Source: Ignavibacteria bacterium (lineage in GTDB: Bacteria; Bacteroidota; Ignavibacteria; Tepidaquicellales; Tepidaquicellaceae). Taken from it: a DNA stretch of 64,000 nucleotides. Of the stretch, positions 20,223 to 28,432 are shown piece by piece. Positions within the stretch are counted from its first letter, which is position 1; the number at the start of each line of letters is the position of its first letter. The translations under genes were made by a program, and so were the position numbers. The notes beneath the pieces were generated by a model, which saw only the letters and a program-made list of their open reading frames with translations, was not told the DNA's origin and ran no database searches. The stretch lies in contig DATAJP010000003.1 of NCBI GenBank assembly GCA_036262055.1, positions 977,001-1,041,000 of the forward strand, given 5' to 3'.

Positions 20223-22196
20223 ATGAAGAAATCCAAAAAAATCATTTTTTCCTCAATTTTATCAGTAATTGCAATTTCCTTTTTATCGGTTTTTTTAATG
20301 CAAGGATGCGGTAAAAAAGAAAAACCTACTGCAAAATTAGATACTCAACCGATTTCAATAAAACAGTTTGATACTCCTCCGGGTGCCGACCCGAGTGTTT
20401 CTGCCGAACAGGGCGGAAACGGATTTACAGGCGAGGGCTGGACAACAAACACAGATTATAACTATCTCGGGGATGCAAATGCAGTTAAAGGCGGTTCTAT
20501 CAGTTGGGCAATTGAAGCATTTCCTGCTTCTTTGAGGTTATACGGAAAAGATGAAAATTCTTATTATACAAGGTTGATGCAAATGATGGTTTATGAAAGC
20601 TTACTTGATACTGACCCTGTAAATGAAAATGAAATACCCCAGCTTGCCACACATTGGCAGAAGTCGGAAAACAATACAGTATATAGATTCAGAATAAATC
20701 CTAATGCAAGATGGGCTGACGGAAAACCTGTTACATCCGAAGACGTTGTTGCAACGTGGAAACTCGCAATTGACCCGGGTTTACTTTCAGGAACAGGTGA
20801 TGTTTATCAGGAATTTCTTGAAGCACCTGTTGCAGAAAGCAAATACATTGTCCGCTTCAAATCCAAAAAAGAAGGATGGCTTCCATTCTCGATTGCAGCC
20901 GGAATTAGAATTCTCCCCGCTCATTATATATCAAATATTACTGCTAAAGAATATCTCGAAAAATATAATTATGAAGTAGTTCCCGGAAGCGGTCCTTATT
21001 ATGTCAAAAAAGAGGATGTTGAAAAAGGCCGTTCAATAACTGTAAGAAGAAGAAGCGACTATTGGGCAGAAAACGAAAGATGGAATATCGGAATGAATAA
21101 CTTCGATATTTTCAAAACAGATGTAATTGCTGATGAAACTTTACGTCTTGAGAAATTCAAAAAAGGTGAAACAGATATTTATCAGTTTAACAGAGCTCAA
21201 TGGTGGGCAGAAAATTCCGATTTTGATGAAGTGAAGCGCGGATTAGTTATGAAGAAAAGAATTTTCAACCAGAATCCTGCAGGACTTCAGGGTATTGCAT
21301 TCAATATGAGAAAACCACCGTTTGATGATATTAAAGTAAGAGCTGCATTCCAGATGCTTTATGATGTAGATAAATTTAATGAAAAACTTTTCTATAATGC
21401 TTATAAGCCGTCTAAATCACAATTCTCTGCAACAGTTTATGAAAACCCAAATAACCCGAGAATAAATTATAATCTTGACAGCGCAATTCTTTTACTTGAT
21501 GAAGCAGGGTGGTCACAAAAAAACAGTGAAGGTTACAGAGTAAAAGATGGTAAAGTATTTTCGGTAGATTTATCTTTTACTCAACCAAGTCAAGAAAGAT
21601 ATTTAACTATTTACCAGGAAGACCTAAAAAAAGCGGGTGTAAAATTAAACTTAAAACAAGTTGACCCGACTACTCAATTTAAAATCGGTAATCAGAGAAA
21701 TTTTGAAATAATTTTAGTTGCATGGGCAGGTCAAACTCCTCCGAGCCATGAATTTAATCTTACTTCCAAAATGGCTGATGACACAAATAGTACCAACTGG
21801 CCGGGAATTAAGATTAAGGAAGTTGATGACCTTGTTGCAAGATATAACGTAGAAGAATCAAAAGAAGAAAGAGTTAAAATTACACGTCAGATTGATTCGC
21901 TTATTTATGCAATCCGTCCTTATGTTTATGGATGGTATGCAGATTATACACGTCTTGAATGGTTGAATAAATTTGGTTATCCTCCATACATCGTTGCACG
22001 TTTTGATGATTATTACAGCGGCACCGAACCAAATATATTCCAGATGTGGTGGGTTGACCCTGAAAAGCTTGCAGCATATAATGAAGCGCTCAAGGGCGGA
22101 ACTATTGAAGTCGATAAAACAGTCGATAACACATTCTGGCTCGATGTTGCTGCCAGAGAGAATAAAGGCGAAATAATAAAAATTCCGAATAAATAA
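20223..22196 (+). CDS. yejA: periplasmic peptide-binding lipoprotein of an ABC importer (YejA-like, SBP_bac_5)
   Basis: 657 residues. Signal with lipobox M-Q-G-C (Cys29) so the protein is membrane-anchored, unlike the soluble YejA of E. coli. The family core begins GGSISWAIEAFPASLRLYG and includes MVYESLLDTDP, the conserved ARWADGKPVTSEDV motif, and NFDIFKTDVIADETLRLEKF, which resembles YejA. The C-terminal lobe includes FNMRKPPFDDIKVR. Substrates of YejA-type systems are oligopeptides such as microcin C. First gene of a six-gene operon, 3 bases upstream of the first permease. Confidence 0.85.
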   Translation: MKKSKKIIFSSILSVIAISFLSVFLMQGCGKKEKPTAKLDTQPISIKQFDTPPGADPSVSAEQGGNGFTGEGWTTNTDYNYLGDANAVKGGSISWAIEAFPASLRLYGKDENSYYTRLMQMMVYESLLDTDPVNENEIPQLATHWQKSENNTVYRFRINPNARWADGKPVTSEDVVATWKLAIDPGLLSGTGDVYQEFLEAPVAESKYIVRFKSKKEGWLPFSIAAGIRILPAHYISNITAKEYLEKYNYEVVPGSGPYYVKKEDVEKGRSITVRRRSDYWAENERWNIGMNNFDIFKTDVIADETLRLEKFKKGETDIYQFNRAQWWAENSDFDEVKRGLVMKKRIFNQNPAGLQGIAFNMRKPPFDDIKVRAAFQMLYDVDKFNEKLFYNAYKPSKSQFSATVYENPNNPRINYNLDSAILLLDEAGWSQKNSEGYRVKDGKVFSVDLSFTQPSQERYLTIYQEDLKKAGVKLNLKQVDPTTQFKIGNQRNFEIILVAWAGQTPPSHEFNLTSKMADDTNSTNWPGIKIKEVDDLVARYNVEESKEERVKITRQIDSLIYAIRPYVYGWYADYTRLEWLNKFGYPPYIVARFDDYYSGTEPNIFQMWWVDPEKLAAYNEALKGGTIEVDKTVDNTFWLDVAARENKGEIIKIPNK

Positions 22197-22199
22197 AAT

Positions 22200-23225
22200 A
22201 TGACGTCATATTTCATAAGAAGGGTTTTACTTATTATTCCAACCTTCATCGGAATTACGTTAATTACTTTTTTGATTTTACAATTCGTGCCCGGCGGTCC
22301 GCTTGAGATGGCGATTATGCAGATGCGGCAGGGCGGACAGCAAAGCGGTGAAACAGGAAGCTCAGGAACGACCCAAAACATTCCGCAGGAAGCCATAGAA
22401 GAATTAAAAAAATATTACGGTTTCGATAAACCTGTTTATGAAAGATACCTTATATGGATTGGCAACCTAGCTAAATTCGATTTAGGAAAATCTTATAAAT
22501 ATAACGAACCTGTAATTGACGTTATAACCGAACGTTTTCCTGTCTCAATTTATTTCGGATTAATTGGTTTTATTCTAACTTATATTGTCTGCATTCCTTT
22601 GGGGGTATATAAGGCCGTCAAGAACGGCTCTACGTTTGATATGCTTTCCTCGGTATTGGTCTTCATTGGGTATTCAATTCCCGGTTTTGCATTCGGTGGT
22701 ATGATGCTTGTGCTTTTCGGCGGCGGAAGCTTCTGGGATGTATTTCCTCTCGGCGGATTCCGTTCCGATGATTGGGAAAGTCTTTCAACAATGGGAAAAA
22801 TTCTCGACCAGATTCACCACACTATTCTGCCCGTTATATGTTATATGATTGGAAGCTTTGCAACGTTGACAATTCTCACAAAAAACTCCGTAATTGAAAA
22901 CTTAAGTCAGGACTATATAAGAACAGCTTACTCAAAAGGTCTGACTGAAAAGCGAGTTATCTTCGGACATGCATTAAGAAATTCTTTAATTCCAATCAGT
23001 ACCGGACTCGGACATGCATTAAGCCTGGTTCTTGCCGGCAGTATCTTAATCGAAAGAGTATTTAACATAGATGGAATGGGACTGCTGGGATTTACCTCAA
23101 TAGTTGAGAGAGACTATCCTGTTGTTATGGGCATACTTGTAATTTCCACTCTTTTGCTTTTAATTGGAAATATTATTTCAGACATTTTATATGCCATTGT
23201 TGACCCTCGAATAAGATTCAAATAA
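22200..23225 (+). CDS. yejB: ABC peptide importer permease, YejB type
   Basis: 341 residues with about six transmembrane helices. Residues 1-25 form the first helix, followed by the extended polar loop (RQGGQQSGETGSSGTT) that also exists, with different sequence, in E. coli YejB and not in OppB. Later segments match YejB closely: DVFPLGGFRSDDWESL, ATLTILTKNSVIENLSQDYI and RDYPVVMGILVIST, ending SDILYAIVDPRIRFK. The EAA coupling motif is around AYSKGLTEKRVIFGHALRN. It should form the heterodimeric channel with the YejE-like protein 16 bases downstream. Confidence 0.93.
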   Translation: MTSYFIRRVLLIIPTFIGITLITFLILQFVPGGPLEMAIMQMRQGGQQSGETGSSGTTQNIPQEAIEELKKYYGFDKPVYERYLIWIGNLAKFDLGKSYKYNEPVIDVITERFPVSIYFGLIGFILTYIVCIPLGVYKAVKNGSTFDMLSSVLVFIGYSIPGFAFGGMMLVLFGGGSFWDVFPLGGFRSDDWESLSTMGKILDQIHHTILPVICYMIGSFATLTILTKNSVIENLSQDYIRTAYSKGLTEKRVIFGHALRNSLIPISTGLGHALSLVLAGSILIERVFNIDGMGLLGFTSIVERDYPVVMGILVISTLLLLIGNIISDILYAIVDPRIRFK

Positions 23226-23241
23226 AACTTAGATTTTATAA

Positions 23242-24336
23242 ATGGAAAATACTGAAAATAAAGAAACACAGGAAGATACTAATAATAAAAAACAAGTCTC
23301 GATTTCCATATTTAGGAAACGCTGGAGAAAATTTAAAACTATTAAACGAGGATATTATTCTTTTTTAATAATTACCATTGCCTATGCAGTTTCATTTATA
23401 TTACCTTTATTTGTCGGCAGAAATGCGTTATTAGTTAAATATGAAGGCGAATACTACTTCCCTATTTTTAAATTCTATTCAGCGCAGCAGCTCGGTCAAA
23501 AAACCGATGCATACGGTGAAGCAAACTACCGTATACTAAATAGAGAATATAAAGAAGCAGACCAGGGCAACTGGGTTTTATTGCCGCCTTATCCATATGG
23601 ACCTGATGAAAATCTTTTAAGTGAATTACAAGGAAATCCTCCTCATTCTCCTTCCTGGCAGCACTGGGCTGGAACAGACGACCGGGGGCGCGATGTATTT
23701 GCGCGGCTGCTTTATGGATTTAACATAGGATTGTCATTTTCACTTCTTGTAACTGCGCTGGCATATTTTATCGGAATAATTGTTGGAGCTGTTTTAGGAT
23801 TTTACAGCGGTAAAGTAGATATGTTCGGATTAAGATTGATTGAGATATGGAGCACACTGCCATTCCTTTATGTTGTTATTATTATAAGCTCAATCTTGCA
23901 GCCAAATTTTATTATTCTTGTCGGAATTCTGATGCTTTTCGGATGGATTGGCATTACATATTATATGCGCGGTGAGTTTTACCGTGAGAAAGCACGCGAT
24001 TATGTTGCTGCTGCTGTTTCGATGGGCGCCAAAAACCGCACGATAATTTTTAAGCATATTCTTCCGAATTCTTTAACTCCGGTTATCTCATACGCGCCAT
24101 TTGCAATTGTTGCAAATATATTTGCTCTGGTTTCGTTAGATTACCTTGGATTTGGTCTTCCTCCTCCTACATCGAGCTGGGGACAGTTACTTCAGCAGGG
24201 ATTAAGTAATATTGAACATTGGTGGCTTATTTTAACCCCAATTATTGCAATGTTCTGTACACTTTTAATGATAACATTTATCGGCGAAGCAATCCGTGAG
24301 GCATTCGACCCGAAAGTATATTCAAGACTAAGATAA
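23242..24336 (+). CDS. yejE: ABC peptide importer permease, YejE type
   Basis: 364 residues. The N-terminal WRKFKTIKRGYYSF and the extracytoplasmic insert starting LLVKYEGEYYFPIFKFYS are those of YejE. The motif WAGTDDRGRDVFARLLYG is the permease-C signature, and the coupling helix is VSMGAKNRTIIFKHILPNS. The last helix ends IGEAIREAFDPKVYS. Overlap-like spacing of 3 bases to the following ATPase gene indicates one transcript. Matching YejB and YejE proteins confirm the transporter subfamily. Confidence 0.93.
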   Translation: MENTENKETQEDTNNKKQVSISIFRKRWRKFKTIKRGYYSFLIITIAYAVSFILPLFVGRNALLVKYEGEYYFPIFKFYSAQQLGQKTDAYGEANYRILNREYKEADQGNWVLLPPYPYGPDENLLSELQGNPPHSPSWQHWAGTDDRGRDVFARLLYGFNIGLSFSLLVTALAYFIGIIVGAVLGFYSGKVDMFGLRLIEIWSTLPFLYVVIIISSILQPNFIILVGILMLFGWIGITYYMRGEFYREKARDYVAAAVSMGAKNRTIIFKHILPNSLTPVISYAPFAIVANIFALVSLDYLGFGLPPPTSSWGQLLQQGLSNIEHWWLILTPIIAMFCTLLMITFIGEAIREAFDPKVYSRLR

Positions 24337-24339
24337 AGG

Positions 24340-25395
24340 ATGAGCATGGATAAGAAAAAACTTGTAGAAGTAAAAAATCTCAAAACGTATTTTTTTGTCG
24401 AAGCAACCGACAAGCAAATAGACGATAAAACTCAAAATCTGAATCATTTTGGTTTTACTGATAAATATTTAAAAGGCAAAGTTGCCGCAAAGGCAGTTGA
24501 TGATGTTTCGTTTGATATTATGGAAGGTGAAGTTCTGGGAATCGTCGGAGAGTCAGGTTCAGGAAAGTCCGTAACTGCATATTCAATCACTCGCTTAATA
24601 CCCGACCCTCCGGGTAAAATTGTCGGAGGTGAAATAATTTTTAAAGGGACCGACCTTTTAAAAATTTCCTTTGATGAGATGCGCCAATACCGTGGCAAGG
24701 AAATATCCATGATATTTCAGGAGCCGATGACATCGCTTAATCCCGTAATGAAAATCAAAGACCAGATTGGTGAAGTAATCTTAAATCACGAAAAAGTTAC
24801 AAAAGAACAGGCATTCGATAAAGGTGTTGCGATGCTTGAAGCCGTAGGTATTCCTGATGCTCGTAAAAGAATGGAAGATTACCCGCATCAATTCAGCGGC
24901 GGTATGCGTCAAAGAGTTATGATTGCAATGGCACTTGCCTGCAACCCCTCATTATTGATTGCTGACGAGCCGACAACTGCACTTGACGTAACAATTCAGG
25001 CACAGATACTTGAACTTATGATTCGATTAAAAGAAGCAAGAAAGGAAGCAGCAATTTTATTAATAACCCATAATCTTGGCGTTGTAGCAGAAGTTTGCGA
25101 CCGTGTCATTGTAATGTATGGTGGAAAAATTCAGGAATTCGGAGATGTATTTTCGATTTTCGATGACCCCAAACATCCTTATACAAAAGGTTTGCTTGAA
25201 TCTCTGCCGGACCCATATGCAGAGAGAAAAGATGAGCTTCAGGCAATTCCGGGAAATGTCCCCAATATTCTTGAGCTTCCTATTGGCTGTAAGTTTTGCA
25301 CAAGATGTAAGTTCGTTATGGATATCTGCTGGAACAATGAACCTCCACTGAAAGAAGTTGCACCGGGACACAGCGTCCGTTGTCACTTATATTAA
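24340..25395 (+). CDS. ABC importer ATPase, OppD/DppD-like half (first half of YejF)
   Basis: 351 residues from an ATG with AAAGG just upstream. Walker A GESGSGKS, signature FSGGMRQRVM, Walker B LLIADEPTTALD and H-loop ITHNLG are intact. Between the first strand and VDDVSFDIMEGE there is an insert of about 30 residues (VEATDKQIDDKTQN...YLKGKVAA). The C-terminal oligopeptide domain has four cysteines (GCKFCTRC and DICWN) plus RCHLY. In E. coli YejF both ATPase halves are one protein; here this gene and the next are separate. Energises peptide uptake at the cytoplasmic face. Confidence 0.93.
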   Translation: MSMDKKKLVEVKNLKTYFFVEATDKQIDDKTQNLNHFGFTDKYLKGKVAAKAVDDVSFDIMEGEVLGIVGESGSGKSVTAYSITRLIPDPPGKIVGGEIIFKGTDLLKISFDEMRQYRGKEISMIFQEPMTSLNPVMKIKDQIGEVILNHEKVTKEQAFDKGVAMLEAVGIPDARKRMEDYPHQFSGGMRQRVMIAMALACNPSLLIADEPTTALDVTIQAQILELMIRLKEARKEAAILLITHNLGVVAEVCDRVIVMYGGKIQEFGDVFSIFDDPKHPYTKGLLESLPDPYAERKDELQAIPGNVPNILELPIGCKFCTRCKFVMDICWNNEPPLKEVAPGHSVRCHLY

Positions 25396-25412: not shown

Positions 25413-26426
25413 ATGCATCCGGAAAATATTTTAGAAATAAAAAATTTAAAAGTCCGCTTCCCCATCCATGGTGGTATTCTGTTGAAAAAAGTCGGTGAGG
25501 TCAAAGCTGTTGACGGCGTTACCCTGAATTTAAAACAAGGTGAAACTCTGGGACTTGTCGGTGAGTCCGGCTGCGGAAAATCCACCGTTGGAAAAGCTGT
25601 AATTAACATTTTAAAATTTAATTCTCCGGAAGTCATCACAGAAGGCGAAGTTTTATTAAGAACCGATAATGGAATCGTTGACTTGTTGAAACTTTCGACA
25701 AATGAAATGCGTCAATATCGCGGGTATATACAGATGATTTTTCAGGATCCTTATTCATCTTTGAATGCCAGACTTTCCGTCGGACAAATTATTGAAGAGC
25801 CGATGCTTTATCATACCAACATGAATAAAAAAGAACGTCTCGAAAAAGTTTCTTGGCTTCTTGAAAAAGTTGGATTGAATCCCGACCAGATAAAAAGATT
25901 TCCTCACGAGTTTTCAGGGGGTCAGCGTCAGAGAATCGGAATTGCACGCGCTCTTGCAACAAACCCTAAAGTTGTAATTGCAGACGAGCCGGTCTCTGCT
26001 CTTGACGTTTCCATTCAAGCACAGGTAATTAATCTTTTGCAGGAATTACAAAAAGAATTTGACCTAAGTATTCTATTTGTCGCTCACGATTTATCTGTAG
26101 TAGAATACATTAGCTCTAAAATCGCGGTTATGTATCTTGGCAATATTGCCGAACTTGGCGATAGTGCTGATGTTTATCACAAACCTGTTCATCCTTACAC
26201 AAGGGCATTATTATCCGCCGTTCCTCTTCCTGACCCGCATAATAGAGGCAAGGAAAGAGTTATCCTTAAAGGAGATGTCCCCACACCCTTAAACAAGCCT
26301 AGCGGCTGCGGTTTCAGGACAAGATGTCCGATTGCAAGGGCTGATTGCGCAATTGATATTCCCCCATTGGAATTGAAAGCAGACGGGCACTATGCAGCGT
26401 GTCCTTATGTTACTATTAATGACTAA
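25413..26426 (+). CDS. ABC importer ATPase, OppF/DppF-like half (second half of YejF)
   Basis: 337 residues. Walker A GESGCGKS, Q-loop MIFQDPYSSLNARL, signature FSGGQRQRIGIA, Walker B VVIADEPVSALD and H-loop VAHDLSVV are complete. The C-terminal oligo_HPY domain carries CGFRTRCPIARADC and a final cysteine in AACPYV. It pairs with the preceding ATPase. The gene starts 17 bases after the previous stop and 12 bases before the histidine kinase gene, so all six genes from 20223 appear to be one operon. Confidence 0.93.
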   Translation: MHPENILEIKNLKVRFPIHGGILLKKVGEVKAVDGVTLNLKQGETLGLVGESGCGKSTVGKAVINILKFNSPEVITEGEVLLRTDNGIVDLLKLSTNEMRQYRGYIQMIFQDPYSSLNARLSVGQIIEEPMLYHTNMNKKERLEKVSWLLEKVGLNPDQIKRFPHEFSGGQRQRIGIARALATNPKVVIADEPVSALDVSIQAQVINLLQELQKEFDLSILFVAHDLSVVEYISSKIAVMYLGNIAELGDSADVYHKPVHPYTRALLSAVPLPDPHNRGKERVILKGDVPTPLNKPSGCGFRTRCPIARADCAIDIPPLELKADGHYAACPYVTIND

Positions 26427-26438
26427 TAATTAATAGCT

Positions 26439-27443
26439 ATGCATATACCAACTCCCGGCAAGATGCGTACACTTACAGAAGTCCTCAAAGCTATTGCTGC
26501 AGAGGGCTTTACTGAAGAGTTTGTATTAAAAGATGGCGGCTTATATATGAAAAATAGGAAATATAATCCTGATGAGCTTGCAATCGCAAAATTTTACAGG
26601 TTCGAAGGTGAATCAAATCCGGATGATATGTCTATTATTTATTCAATAATGACATGCGACGGACACAAAGGTGTGTTAATCGATGCTTATGGAACCTATA
26701 GCAATCCCGATATTGATGCTCTTATTAAAAAAATCTACCTGAGCCAGGAATCGAAGAAAAACTCCAATCCCGTTCATGAAGGAAATAAAATTTATGTCCT
26801 GCCACATGAAATAAGAAACTGCCTTACGGGAATTTTAACTACTCTTGAAATACTTGAAGAAACAAATGAAAATTCCACACCTGATGAAAGAAAAGAATAC
26901 TATGATATTATGAAAGAATCAGCTGAGAAGCTTGAAAAGTCAGTTAACAATCAACTTAGCTTTGAAAACTTGGAATTAATTCTTTCAGATGAAAATAAGC
27001 TCGCACAGGAACGGAAAGAAATAACTGAACATCCTGCCGATGTCATTAACAATGTTCTTGAAGATATGATGAGAAAGCATTCCGATAGACAAAAAGATGT
27101 TAATGCTCATATTGATAATAATGTAAAAATAAATATCTCCGAATTAAGTTTTAAGCGTCTTATACAGGAAGTAATGGAAAATGCCTTCAAACATTCCAAA
27201 AAAGATGATAGAATAATTCTTACCGATAACGTTGAAGAAACTAATTACATAATTGAGATTACAAACGAAGGTAAGGGAGTTTCAGATGAACAGATAAAAG
27301 AAAATAAATCTATTTATGGTTTTGCTATTATTAATAAAATTCTTGAAGTATATAATGGCTGCATGAATGTAAAAACTGAAAAAGATGGATATACAAGCAT
27401 TCGTTTAGATTTTAAAATCAACAAGGATAAAACCTCTTCATAA
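26439..27443 (+). CDS. soluble histidine kinase with a novel N-terminal domain, in the peptide-importer operon
   Basis: 334 residues with no transmembrane segment. The N-terminal ~100 residues (TEVLKAIAAEGFTEEFVLKD, FYRFEGESNPDDMSIIY, GHKGVLIDAYGTYSNPDI) resemble a family of about 100-residue stand-alone proteins in Bacteroidetes whose annotation as phosphoribosylpyrophosphate synthetase seems unjustified. A kinase core follows: His123 in PHEIRNCLTG, N box ENAFKH (Asn248), a modified G1 box ITNEGKGV (normally D-x-G-x-G) and G2 segment YGFAII. The histidine is therefore HisKA-like, preceded by Pro rather than Ser. The operon position suggests that it monitors or reports on the imported peptide or transporter state. 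The response regulator at 27803 faces it but its pairing is unproven. Confidence 0.85.
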   Translation: MHIPTPGKMRTLTEVLKAIAAEGFTEEFVLKDGGLYMKNRKYNPDELAIAKFYRFEGESNPDDMSIIYSIMTCDGHKGVLIDAYGTYSNPDIDALIKKIYLSQESKKNSNPVHEGNKIYVLPHEIRNCLTGILTTLEILEETNENSTPDERKEYYDIMKESAEKLEKSVNNQLSFENLELILSDENKLAQERKEITEHPADVINNVLEDMMRKHSDRQKDVNAHIDNNVKINISELSFKRLIQEVMENAFKHSKKDDRIILTDNVEETNYIIEITNEGKGVSDEQIKENKSIYGFAIINKILEVYNGCMNVKTEKDGYTSIRLDFKINKDKTSS

Positions 27444-27581: not shown

Positions 27582-27690
27582 AAAAAAAGAGACCGGCCTT
27601 AGTAATGCGCCGAAAGGTGAGATGTGATTTGAGGTTAAATTAAATCCAAAGCCGGTCGTCTTAATTCTTCGGTAACTTTGGGAAGCTACC
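27582..27690. ncRNA. candidate structured RNA or 3' regulatory element
   Basis: Three stems can be drawn. GACCGGC (27591-27597) pairs with GCCGGTC (27651-27657). Inside, CGCC-GAAA-GGTG (27608-27619) is a GAAA-tetraloop hairpin on the plus strand. GGTAACTT / AAGCTACC (27671-27690) has a TGGG loop. On the minus strand the outer stem is followed by TC and seven Ts, as in an intrinsic terminator, so the minus-strand 3' UTR of the response regulator is also a candidate. The strand is unresolved and no known riboswitch motif was recognised. Confidence 0.45.
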
Positions 27691-27802: not shown

Positions 27803-28432
27803 TTAATCAAGCAAATCATTTTTCAAAGCATAGTGAGTTAGCTCCACATTCGATTTCATTCTCATTTTCTCAAGAATCCGTGCTCTGTAAGTGTTCACTG
27901 TAGGGACACTTAACGAAAGCTTATCAGCAATATACGAAACTTTTTTTCCCGATGCAATTAATCTAAAAACCTCAAATTCCCTATCAGAAAGAAAATTATG
28001 TATGGGTTTATATTCATCATCGATTTCCTGAGCCAACTGTTCAGCTAAATTCATGCTGATATACTTATGCCCCGAGTAAATCTTCCGTATTGCATTTACA
28101 AGCTCTTCTGAAGCGCTTTCTTTAGTTAAGTAACCAAAAGCACCGGATTTTAGTGCCCGCACGGCAAATCTGTCCTCCGGATGCATGGAAAATATTAATA
28201 TTTTCGGCTTTTGAGTGATTTTTTTAATGGATTTAATCAATTCTATGCCGTTTTGTCCGGGAAGTGTTATATCCAAAATTATAACATCAACCTCATTTTT
28301 CATTATAAAATTTAGCGCTTCAGGTCCATTGCTCGCTTCTCCGGCTACTATAAAATCAGTTTCTTCGCGCAGAATTTTTTTAACGCCTTCTCTGAGCAAT
28401 TGATGGTCATCTATAATGAGGATTTTTATCAT
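27803..28432 (-). CDS. NarL/LuxR-family response regulator
   Basis: 209 residues. Receiver domain 1-120 has the acidic pair Asp8-Asp9, phosphoacceptor Asp54 in DVIILDITLPG, the conserved Thr/Ser region ILIFSMHPED and Lys/Ala-Phe-Gly-Tyr (SGAFGYLTKESA). The LuxR-type HTH covers about 145-205 (LSDREFEVFRLIASGKK and SVPTVNTYRARILEKM). It binds DNA as a dimer when phosphorylated. The nearest kinase is the operon kinase at 26439, but NarL regulators are usually driven by HisKA_3 kinases whereas that kinase has an H-E-I-R HisKA-type site, so the pairing is only inferred from position. Confidence 0.92.
   Translation of the reverse strand: MIKILIIDDHQLLREGVKKILREETDFIVAGEASNGPEALNFIMKNEVDVIILDITLPGQNGIELIKSIKKITQKPKILIFSMHPEDRFAVRALKSGAFGYLTKESASEELVNAIRKIYSGHKYISMNLAEQLAQEIDDEYKPIHNFLSDREFEVFRLIASGKKVSYIADKLSLSVPTVNTYRARILEKMRMKSNVELTHYALKNDLLD

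Follow-up and report, generated by a model that had tools for sequence, protein, structure and literature searches.

The gene that follows a peptide-type importer operon in an Ignavibacteria bacterium (assembly GCA_036262055.1, contig DATAJP010000003.1) is probably the product of a deletion fusion: a 334-aa protein, likely a pseudokinase, that represents the constrained remnant of a larger signaling module. The gene lies in a 64,000-nucleotide stretch of that contig, referred to here as the window. In the closest genus, the same place is occupied by three separate genes, and since the states before and after the fusion are both preserved, a three-gene signaling module can be seen collapsing into a single chimera, where an accessory protein would have taken the place of a receiver. 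The comparison also brought out a small protein domain, widespread in the Bacteroidota (about a quarter of the phylum genomes sampled) yet uncatalogued and misnamed. Features discussed below are collected in Table 1.

Table 1. Location of the features in the window (positions of the 64,000-nt stretch) and of related copies in other loci (positions within the named locus)
Feature	Location	Strand	Basis or remark
Solute-binding lipoprotein-like protein (SBP_bac_5), first operon gene	20223..22196	+	Pfam PF00496, 3.3e-64
Importer permease, YejB-like	22200..23225	+	Pfam BPD_transp_1; NCBIfam YejB subfamily best, 5.5e-97, below cut-off
Importer permease, YejE/microcin C-type	23242..24336	+	Best NCBIfam PRK15021, 6.8e-84, below cut-off
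Importer ATPase 1, OppD-like, separate gene	24340..25395	+	Pfam, NCBIfam
Importer ATPase 2, OppF-like, separate gene	25413..26426	+	Pfam, NCBIfam; 84-85% identity in sister genus
Fused gene: orphan small domain, DHp and lid-less CA domain	26439..27443	+	334 aa
Orphan N-terminal domain, residues 9-104	26463..26750	+	Homologous to stand-alone Bacteroidota proteins
Junction/linker; GAF/PAS kinase and REC domain probably lost between the halves	26751..26798	+	Comparison with L087, L076 and L077
HisKA (DHp), phospho-acceptor His123 in LPHEIR	26799..26975	+	Pfam and alignment
HATPase_c, Asn248 and NEG 276-278; lid, F box and most of G2 gone	27144..27416	+	Pfam and alignment
Conserved 67-nt palindromic element, candidate RNA	27591..27657	+	Between fused gene and response regulator
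NarL-type response regulator	27803..28432	-	69% identity to sister-genus orthologue at the same place
HMA-AraC fusions with the domain	L148 8856-9719; L152 2469-3332; L186 2417-3247; L230
CxxC metal-context copies	L262 5980-6294; L263 5986-6294; L264 5983-6294; L284; L297; L300

Origin of the fused gene by comparison with the sister genus

The initial annotation, made from the sequence of the window, described the gene as the sixth of a tight importer operon and as a soluble histidine kinase with an unassigned N-terminal input domain. The gene and its position were confirmed, with a start 12 nt past the second ABC ATPase gene, and the N-terminal part is indeed without an assigned family: residues 1 to 105 of the window protein matched nothing in Pfam, NCBIfam, PHROGs or PDB, and Pfam located HisKA at residues 121 to 179 (3.8e-10) and HATPase_c at residues 236 to 326 (6.7e-10). 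A scan of genome contigs with the fused protein over its full length returned no relatives, and the fusion is carried by one genome only.

In two independent genomes of the sister genus (G271, which is Ignavibacteria UBA6667, loci L076 and L087; and G272, locus L077), the importer operon is followed by separate genes for a stand-alone copy of the domain (99 to 100 aa), a GAF/PAS histidine kinase (549 aa) and a REC-HisKA-HATPase protein (366 aa); further on lie a convergent gene for a lone REC protein (120 or 124 aa) and a gene for a NarL-type regulator (211 aa). The GAF, PAS and REC labels on these proteins were assigned from sequence and similarity. The window genome has the same flanks with a single gene in the middle. 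Residues 9 to 101 of its product were 57% identical to the sister stand-alone domain (54 to 57% across the sister copies; 56 to 57%, with E of about 1e-31, when residues 9 to 103 were searched), and its kinase half was 48 to 52% identical to the DHp-CA half of the sister REC-HisKA-HATPase, compared with 76 to 87% identity for the flanking importer genes. The REC domain is present in the orthologues of G271 and G272 and in those of G260 and G261 but is absent from the window protein. No orthologue of the GAF/PAS kinase was found in the window's own genome, where the best match was a 32%-identical paralogue region lacking the GAF part, and no relic of the lone REC gene was found in the spacer between the window genes.

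Because G260 and G261, which belong to another genus, encode full-length REC-kinases with the D-E-G motif, the lid and the GLGLGL motif intact, the comparison of these sequences shows REC-DHp-CA to be the ancestral form. A deletion in the window lineage is then the economical reading of the difference in gene order, since the opposite course, the splitting of a fused ancestor, would need the insertion of two complete kinase parts and the regain of a REC domain. On this reading, the GAF/PAS kinase and the REC domain would have been lost in one or more deletions, which left the small domain where the REC receiver formerly stood; the junction is too diverged for the exact breakpoints to be placed.

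The ancestral arrangement resembles that of LvrB of Leptospira, a Rec-controlled kinase with REC-DHp-CA architecture that is activated by the upstream kinase LvrA (PMC13269768). The kinase half of the window protein derives from a REC-HisKA-HATPase gene, its sister orthologues keep that architecture, and the sister REC-kinase adjoins a GAF/PAS kinase just as LvrB has LvrA. The ancestral relay probably ran from the GAF/PAS kinase to the REC domain of an LvrB-type kinase, from there to its DHp and CA domains, and then to a response regulator; the small protein, expressed from the shared transcript, was presumably an accessory. In contrast to LvrB, the window protein has an orphan domain instead of REC, and it has lost the lid and most of the G2 box.

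State of the kinase half and constraint on the gene

The H box (LPHEIRNCLTG, with His123) and the N box (ENAFKHS, with Asn248) of the kinase half are kept. The G1 box reads Asn-Glu-Gly (residues 276 to 278) rather than D-x-G, as the initial annotation had pointed out, but this substitution is not unusual: the Asn is found in both sister kinases and Asp in G260 and G261, so the change predates the fusion, and Escherichia coli CusS (PDB 7zp0) has Asn at the aligned place (VENPG), so that Asn alone is not evidence of a dead kinase. Only the window protein has an in-frame deletion of 13+1 residues at about position 27299, which removes the F box, the ATP lid and most of the G2 box; the stretch that reads ITNEGRALTPEQIKYIGAFMQFQRHHYEQQGLGLGLAIV in the sister kinase reads ITNEGKGVSDEQIKENKSIYGFAII in the window, and the G2 remnant is SIYGFAII versus GLGLGLAIV. 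We infer from these motifs that ATP binding has been lost, with the caveat that some kinases retain short lids, and the present protein is most likely unable to autophosphorylate. The initial annotation had overlooked this deletion. A model of the kinase half, built from two sequences only, had the DHp-CA fold and matched histidine kinase structures, among them HK853 and the pseudokinase DivL, with confidence lowest at the deletion (pLDDT below 50 at model residues 177 to 180). A full-length model from a mixed alignment was dropped, as the kinases in it were misaligned.

There are precedents for such a protein among the pseudo-histidine kinases, namely DivL (PMC4211667) and a CA-frameshift variant of ChrS (PMC9491836), in which, as in the window protein, the DHp-CA fold is kept and the nucleotide site is compromised; DivL differs in that it lacks the His, whereas the window protein keeps its His and has the lid deleted. 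By analogy with these proteins, the window protein is probably a scaffold or a phosphatase-type partner. If active at all, it would be a dimeric DHp scaffold whose role is to bind a response regulator, to take the phosphate off one or to associate with another kinase, and the small domain would serve as the partner- or ligand-binding part.

We considered the possibility that the gene encodes a working cytoplasmic sensor kinase, in which the small domain would bind a ligand such as an imported peptide, control autophosphorylation and so signal to the adjacent NarL-type regulator. The domain does occupy the N-terminal input position, the gene shares an operon with the importer, His123, Asn248 and the DHp helix are retained, and a G1 Asn is found in the copper-sensor kinase CusS. 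This reading is nevertheless unlikely given the deletion of the lid, the F box and most of G2, the restriction of the importer linkage to two genera (see below) and the nature of the junction: in LvrB-type kinases the signal runs through a heptad-length alpha-S helix (PMC13269768), and this helix is replaced here by a linker containing Pro and Gly.

The loss of two and a half genes and the lone REC gene, the loss of catalytic motifs and the occurrence in a single genome would also suit a decaying pseudogene, a remnant of the three-gene module whose frame is open by chance. The rate of change in the kinase half is not accelerated, however, with a ratio of window branch to sister branch of about 1.4 versus about 0.9 to 1.8 for the five importer genes (dN in the kinase half was 0.39, and synonymous sites were saturated). 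About nine stop codons would be expected in the kinase half under neutral drift at the full divergence, and none was observed; both deletions are in frame; and the family-invariant residues of the small domain (R54, E56, G57, D63, G78 and G85) are all kept. Since there is no rate acceleration and the frame is free of stops, the gene has been under constraint for most of its branch, although the rate test would miss a recent loss of function and does not date the fusion. A pseudogene is therefore quite improbable. Finally, the occurrence of the fusion in one genome could reflect an assembly artefact in which the middle genes collapsed out of the consensus, but this is very improbable, because the assembly has 4 contigs and is 95% complete, the missing kinase does not turn up in any other part of it, and the same gene carries a further, separate in-frame change, the lid deletion.

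Importer operon and intergenic element

The gaps between the five importer genes are 3 to 17 nt. YejABEF-type importers have a single fused double ATPase, YejF; this is absent here, and the OppD- and OppF-like ATPases are encoded by two separate genes. For this reason, and because the permease scores fall below their cut-offs, the importer is, on its sequence, best called an Opp/Yej-like, peptide-type ABC importer. It is conserved in 19 of 29 genomes of the family, traced via the ATPase partner of the SBP_bac_5 gene. Only the window genome and one sister genus have genes for the domain or the kinase after it; all the other genera of the family that could be read have unrelated genes there instead. 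The initial annotation had suggested a possible sensor of ligands or peptides, an idea that rests on the operon linkage, and it had named unrelated neighbors in relatives as one outcome that would speak against its reading. That outcome is what was found, and the limitation of the linkage to two genera weakens a peptide-sensor role, which is left unsupported.

The spacer downstream of the fused gene contains a palindromic element with the layout ACCGGC...GCCGGT around an inner GCGCC-GAAA-GGTG hairpin. Both sister genomes carry the element in the corresponding position, with 91% identity (G271, C17:34967-35031, minus strand; G272, C203:848-912, minus strand), and a paralogue lies elsewhere in the window's own genome (C2:1063120-1063183; L327 1501-1564). 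The four copies share a 33-nt core without any change, and the element was found in 3 of 391 genomes of the class. The 171-nt region with the element had a fold z-score of -2.4, and the element matched no Rfam family. The element is possibly an unknown small RNA or regulatory element.

The small orphan domain and its other contexts

Residues 9 to 103 of the window protein matched stand-alone proteins of about 100 aa in 69 of 247 genomes of the phylum (best match outside the family, E of 1e-21) and in 52 of 391 genomes of the class, the weakest of the latter matches being doubtful. The domain is encoded by at least 569 stretches of a collection of named genomes, and the 80 named loci that were kept are almost all from the Bacteroidota by record title. 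As the initial annotation had proposed, then, the N-terminal 95 or so residues belong to a small Bacteroidota family whose members are sometimes named phosphoribosylpyrophosphate synthetase in RefSeq, as are two copies on Flavobacterium plasmids. The window residues are a full-length homologue of these proteins, with the difference that the proteins are normally stand-alone and the window copy is fused. An alignment of 28 family members had no match in Pfam, NCBIfam or PDB, and no PRPP-synthetase domain (that of the phosphoribosyltransferase-type enzyme of about 310 aa) was found in the 28 members with Pfam or NCBIfam; the family thus lacks the features of that enzyme, as had been suggested, and for the small proteins the name is unsupported.

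The family core motif is (Y)RFEGxSNPDDxSxLYAI...GxKGxLVDAYGxY, which reduces to R-[FY]-E-G ... D ... G ... G over about 95 residues; the window copy has this pattern and every family-invariant residue. The domain was modeled with confidence (pLDDT 84, pTM 0.74) as a helix, six strands and a helix. Foldseek searches of PDB and viral libraries with this model gave nothing at an E value of 0.001 or below, with TM scores below 0.46 among the matches listed, and the domain is accordingly assigned to no fold; the PDB had no sequence match to the domain or to its profile, no viral copies of the domain were found, and literature searches for the domain or its odd name turned up nothing useful.

The initial annotation had envisaged the domain as the input module of a kinase and had proposed counting how often it precedes HATPase_c. 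Among about 150 stand-alone copies screened and the 80 named loci, the window copy alone is joined to a kinase and no other precedes one; apart from the HMA-AraC fusions described below, the frames of all other screened copies are too short for a kinase. The kinase fusion is a one-off in the sampled copies, and a general role as a kinase input module is not supported. Weak long-frame matches (G188, G418, G528 and others) failed with the profile; only that in G146 held, as an HMA-AraC fusion. A general linkage between domain and kinases was likewise rejected, because, on a rough count that set the sister loci aside, kinases within three genes of the domain were about as frequent as among all genes of the loci. 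A stand-alone copy in L085 (G264, C125:10000-27000) lies near a gene for a 1284-aa kinase-like protein and one for a 448-aa REC protein; the genus of G264 is without the importer linkage.

The domain is also fused at the C terminus of HMA-AraC regulators, in Cyclobacterium lianum (L148), a MAG (L152), G049 (L230) and G146 (L186). G049 and G146 are of one family, and the fusions were seen in one Bacteroidota lineage. As in the window gene, the same small domain is joined to a signaling or regulatory protein; the differences are the AraC DNA-binding output, the position of the domain at the opposite end and the confinement to that lineage.

Copper or heavy-metal clusters hold five of the six plasmid matches, a count that includes two near-identical Flavobacterium plasmids and two similar Hymenobacter clusters. 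On the Pontibacter and Flavobacterium plasmids, the next gene downstream of the domain gene encodes a copper or heavy-metal P-type ATPase. Metal markers occurred within 5 kb at 4 of 60 chromosomal loci, and at three of these four a copper-type ATPase gene lies downstream in the same orientation. Six metal-context copies were examined, three from plasmids and three from chromosomes, and in each of them a CxxC motif precedes the RFE core; among 48 other copies, 5 had it (Fisher P = 0.003 for chromosomal copies alone, an exploratory value since motif and contexts were noticed in the same data). The window and sister-genus copies are without CxxC, and therefore the metal reading does not extend to the window gene. 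Tentatively, the orphan domain might be an undescribed small regulatory module of the Bacteroidota, normally a separate adaptor, that has been joined to AraC regulators and to a pseudokinase and whose CxxC form is dedicated to copper-resistance operons. Its ties to two kinds of regulators and the copper-cluster subfamily provide the first testable handles on its function. One locus of Aquimarina sediminis (L100, 8621-9187) has a second copy of the domain followed by about 100 more residues, which is possibly another fusion.
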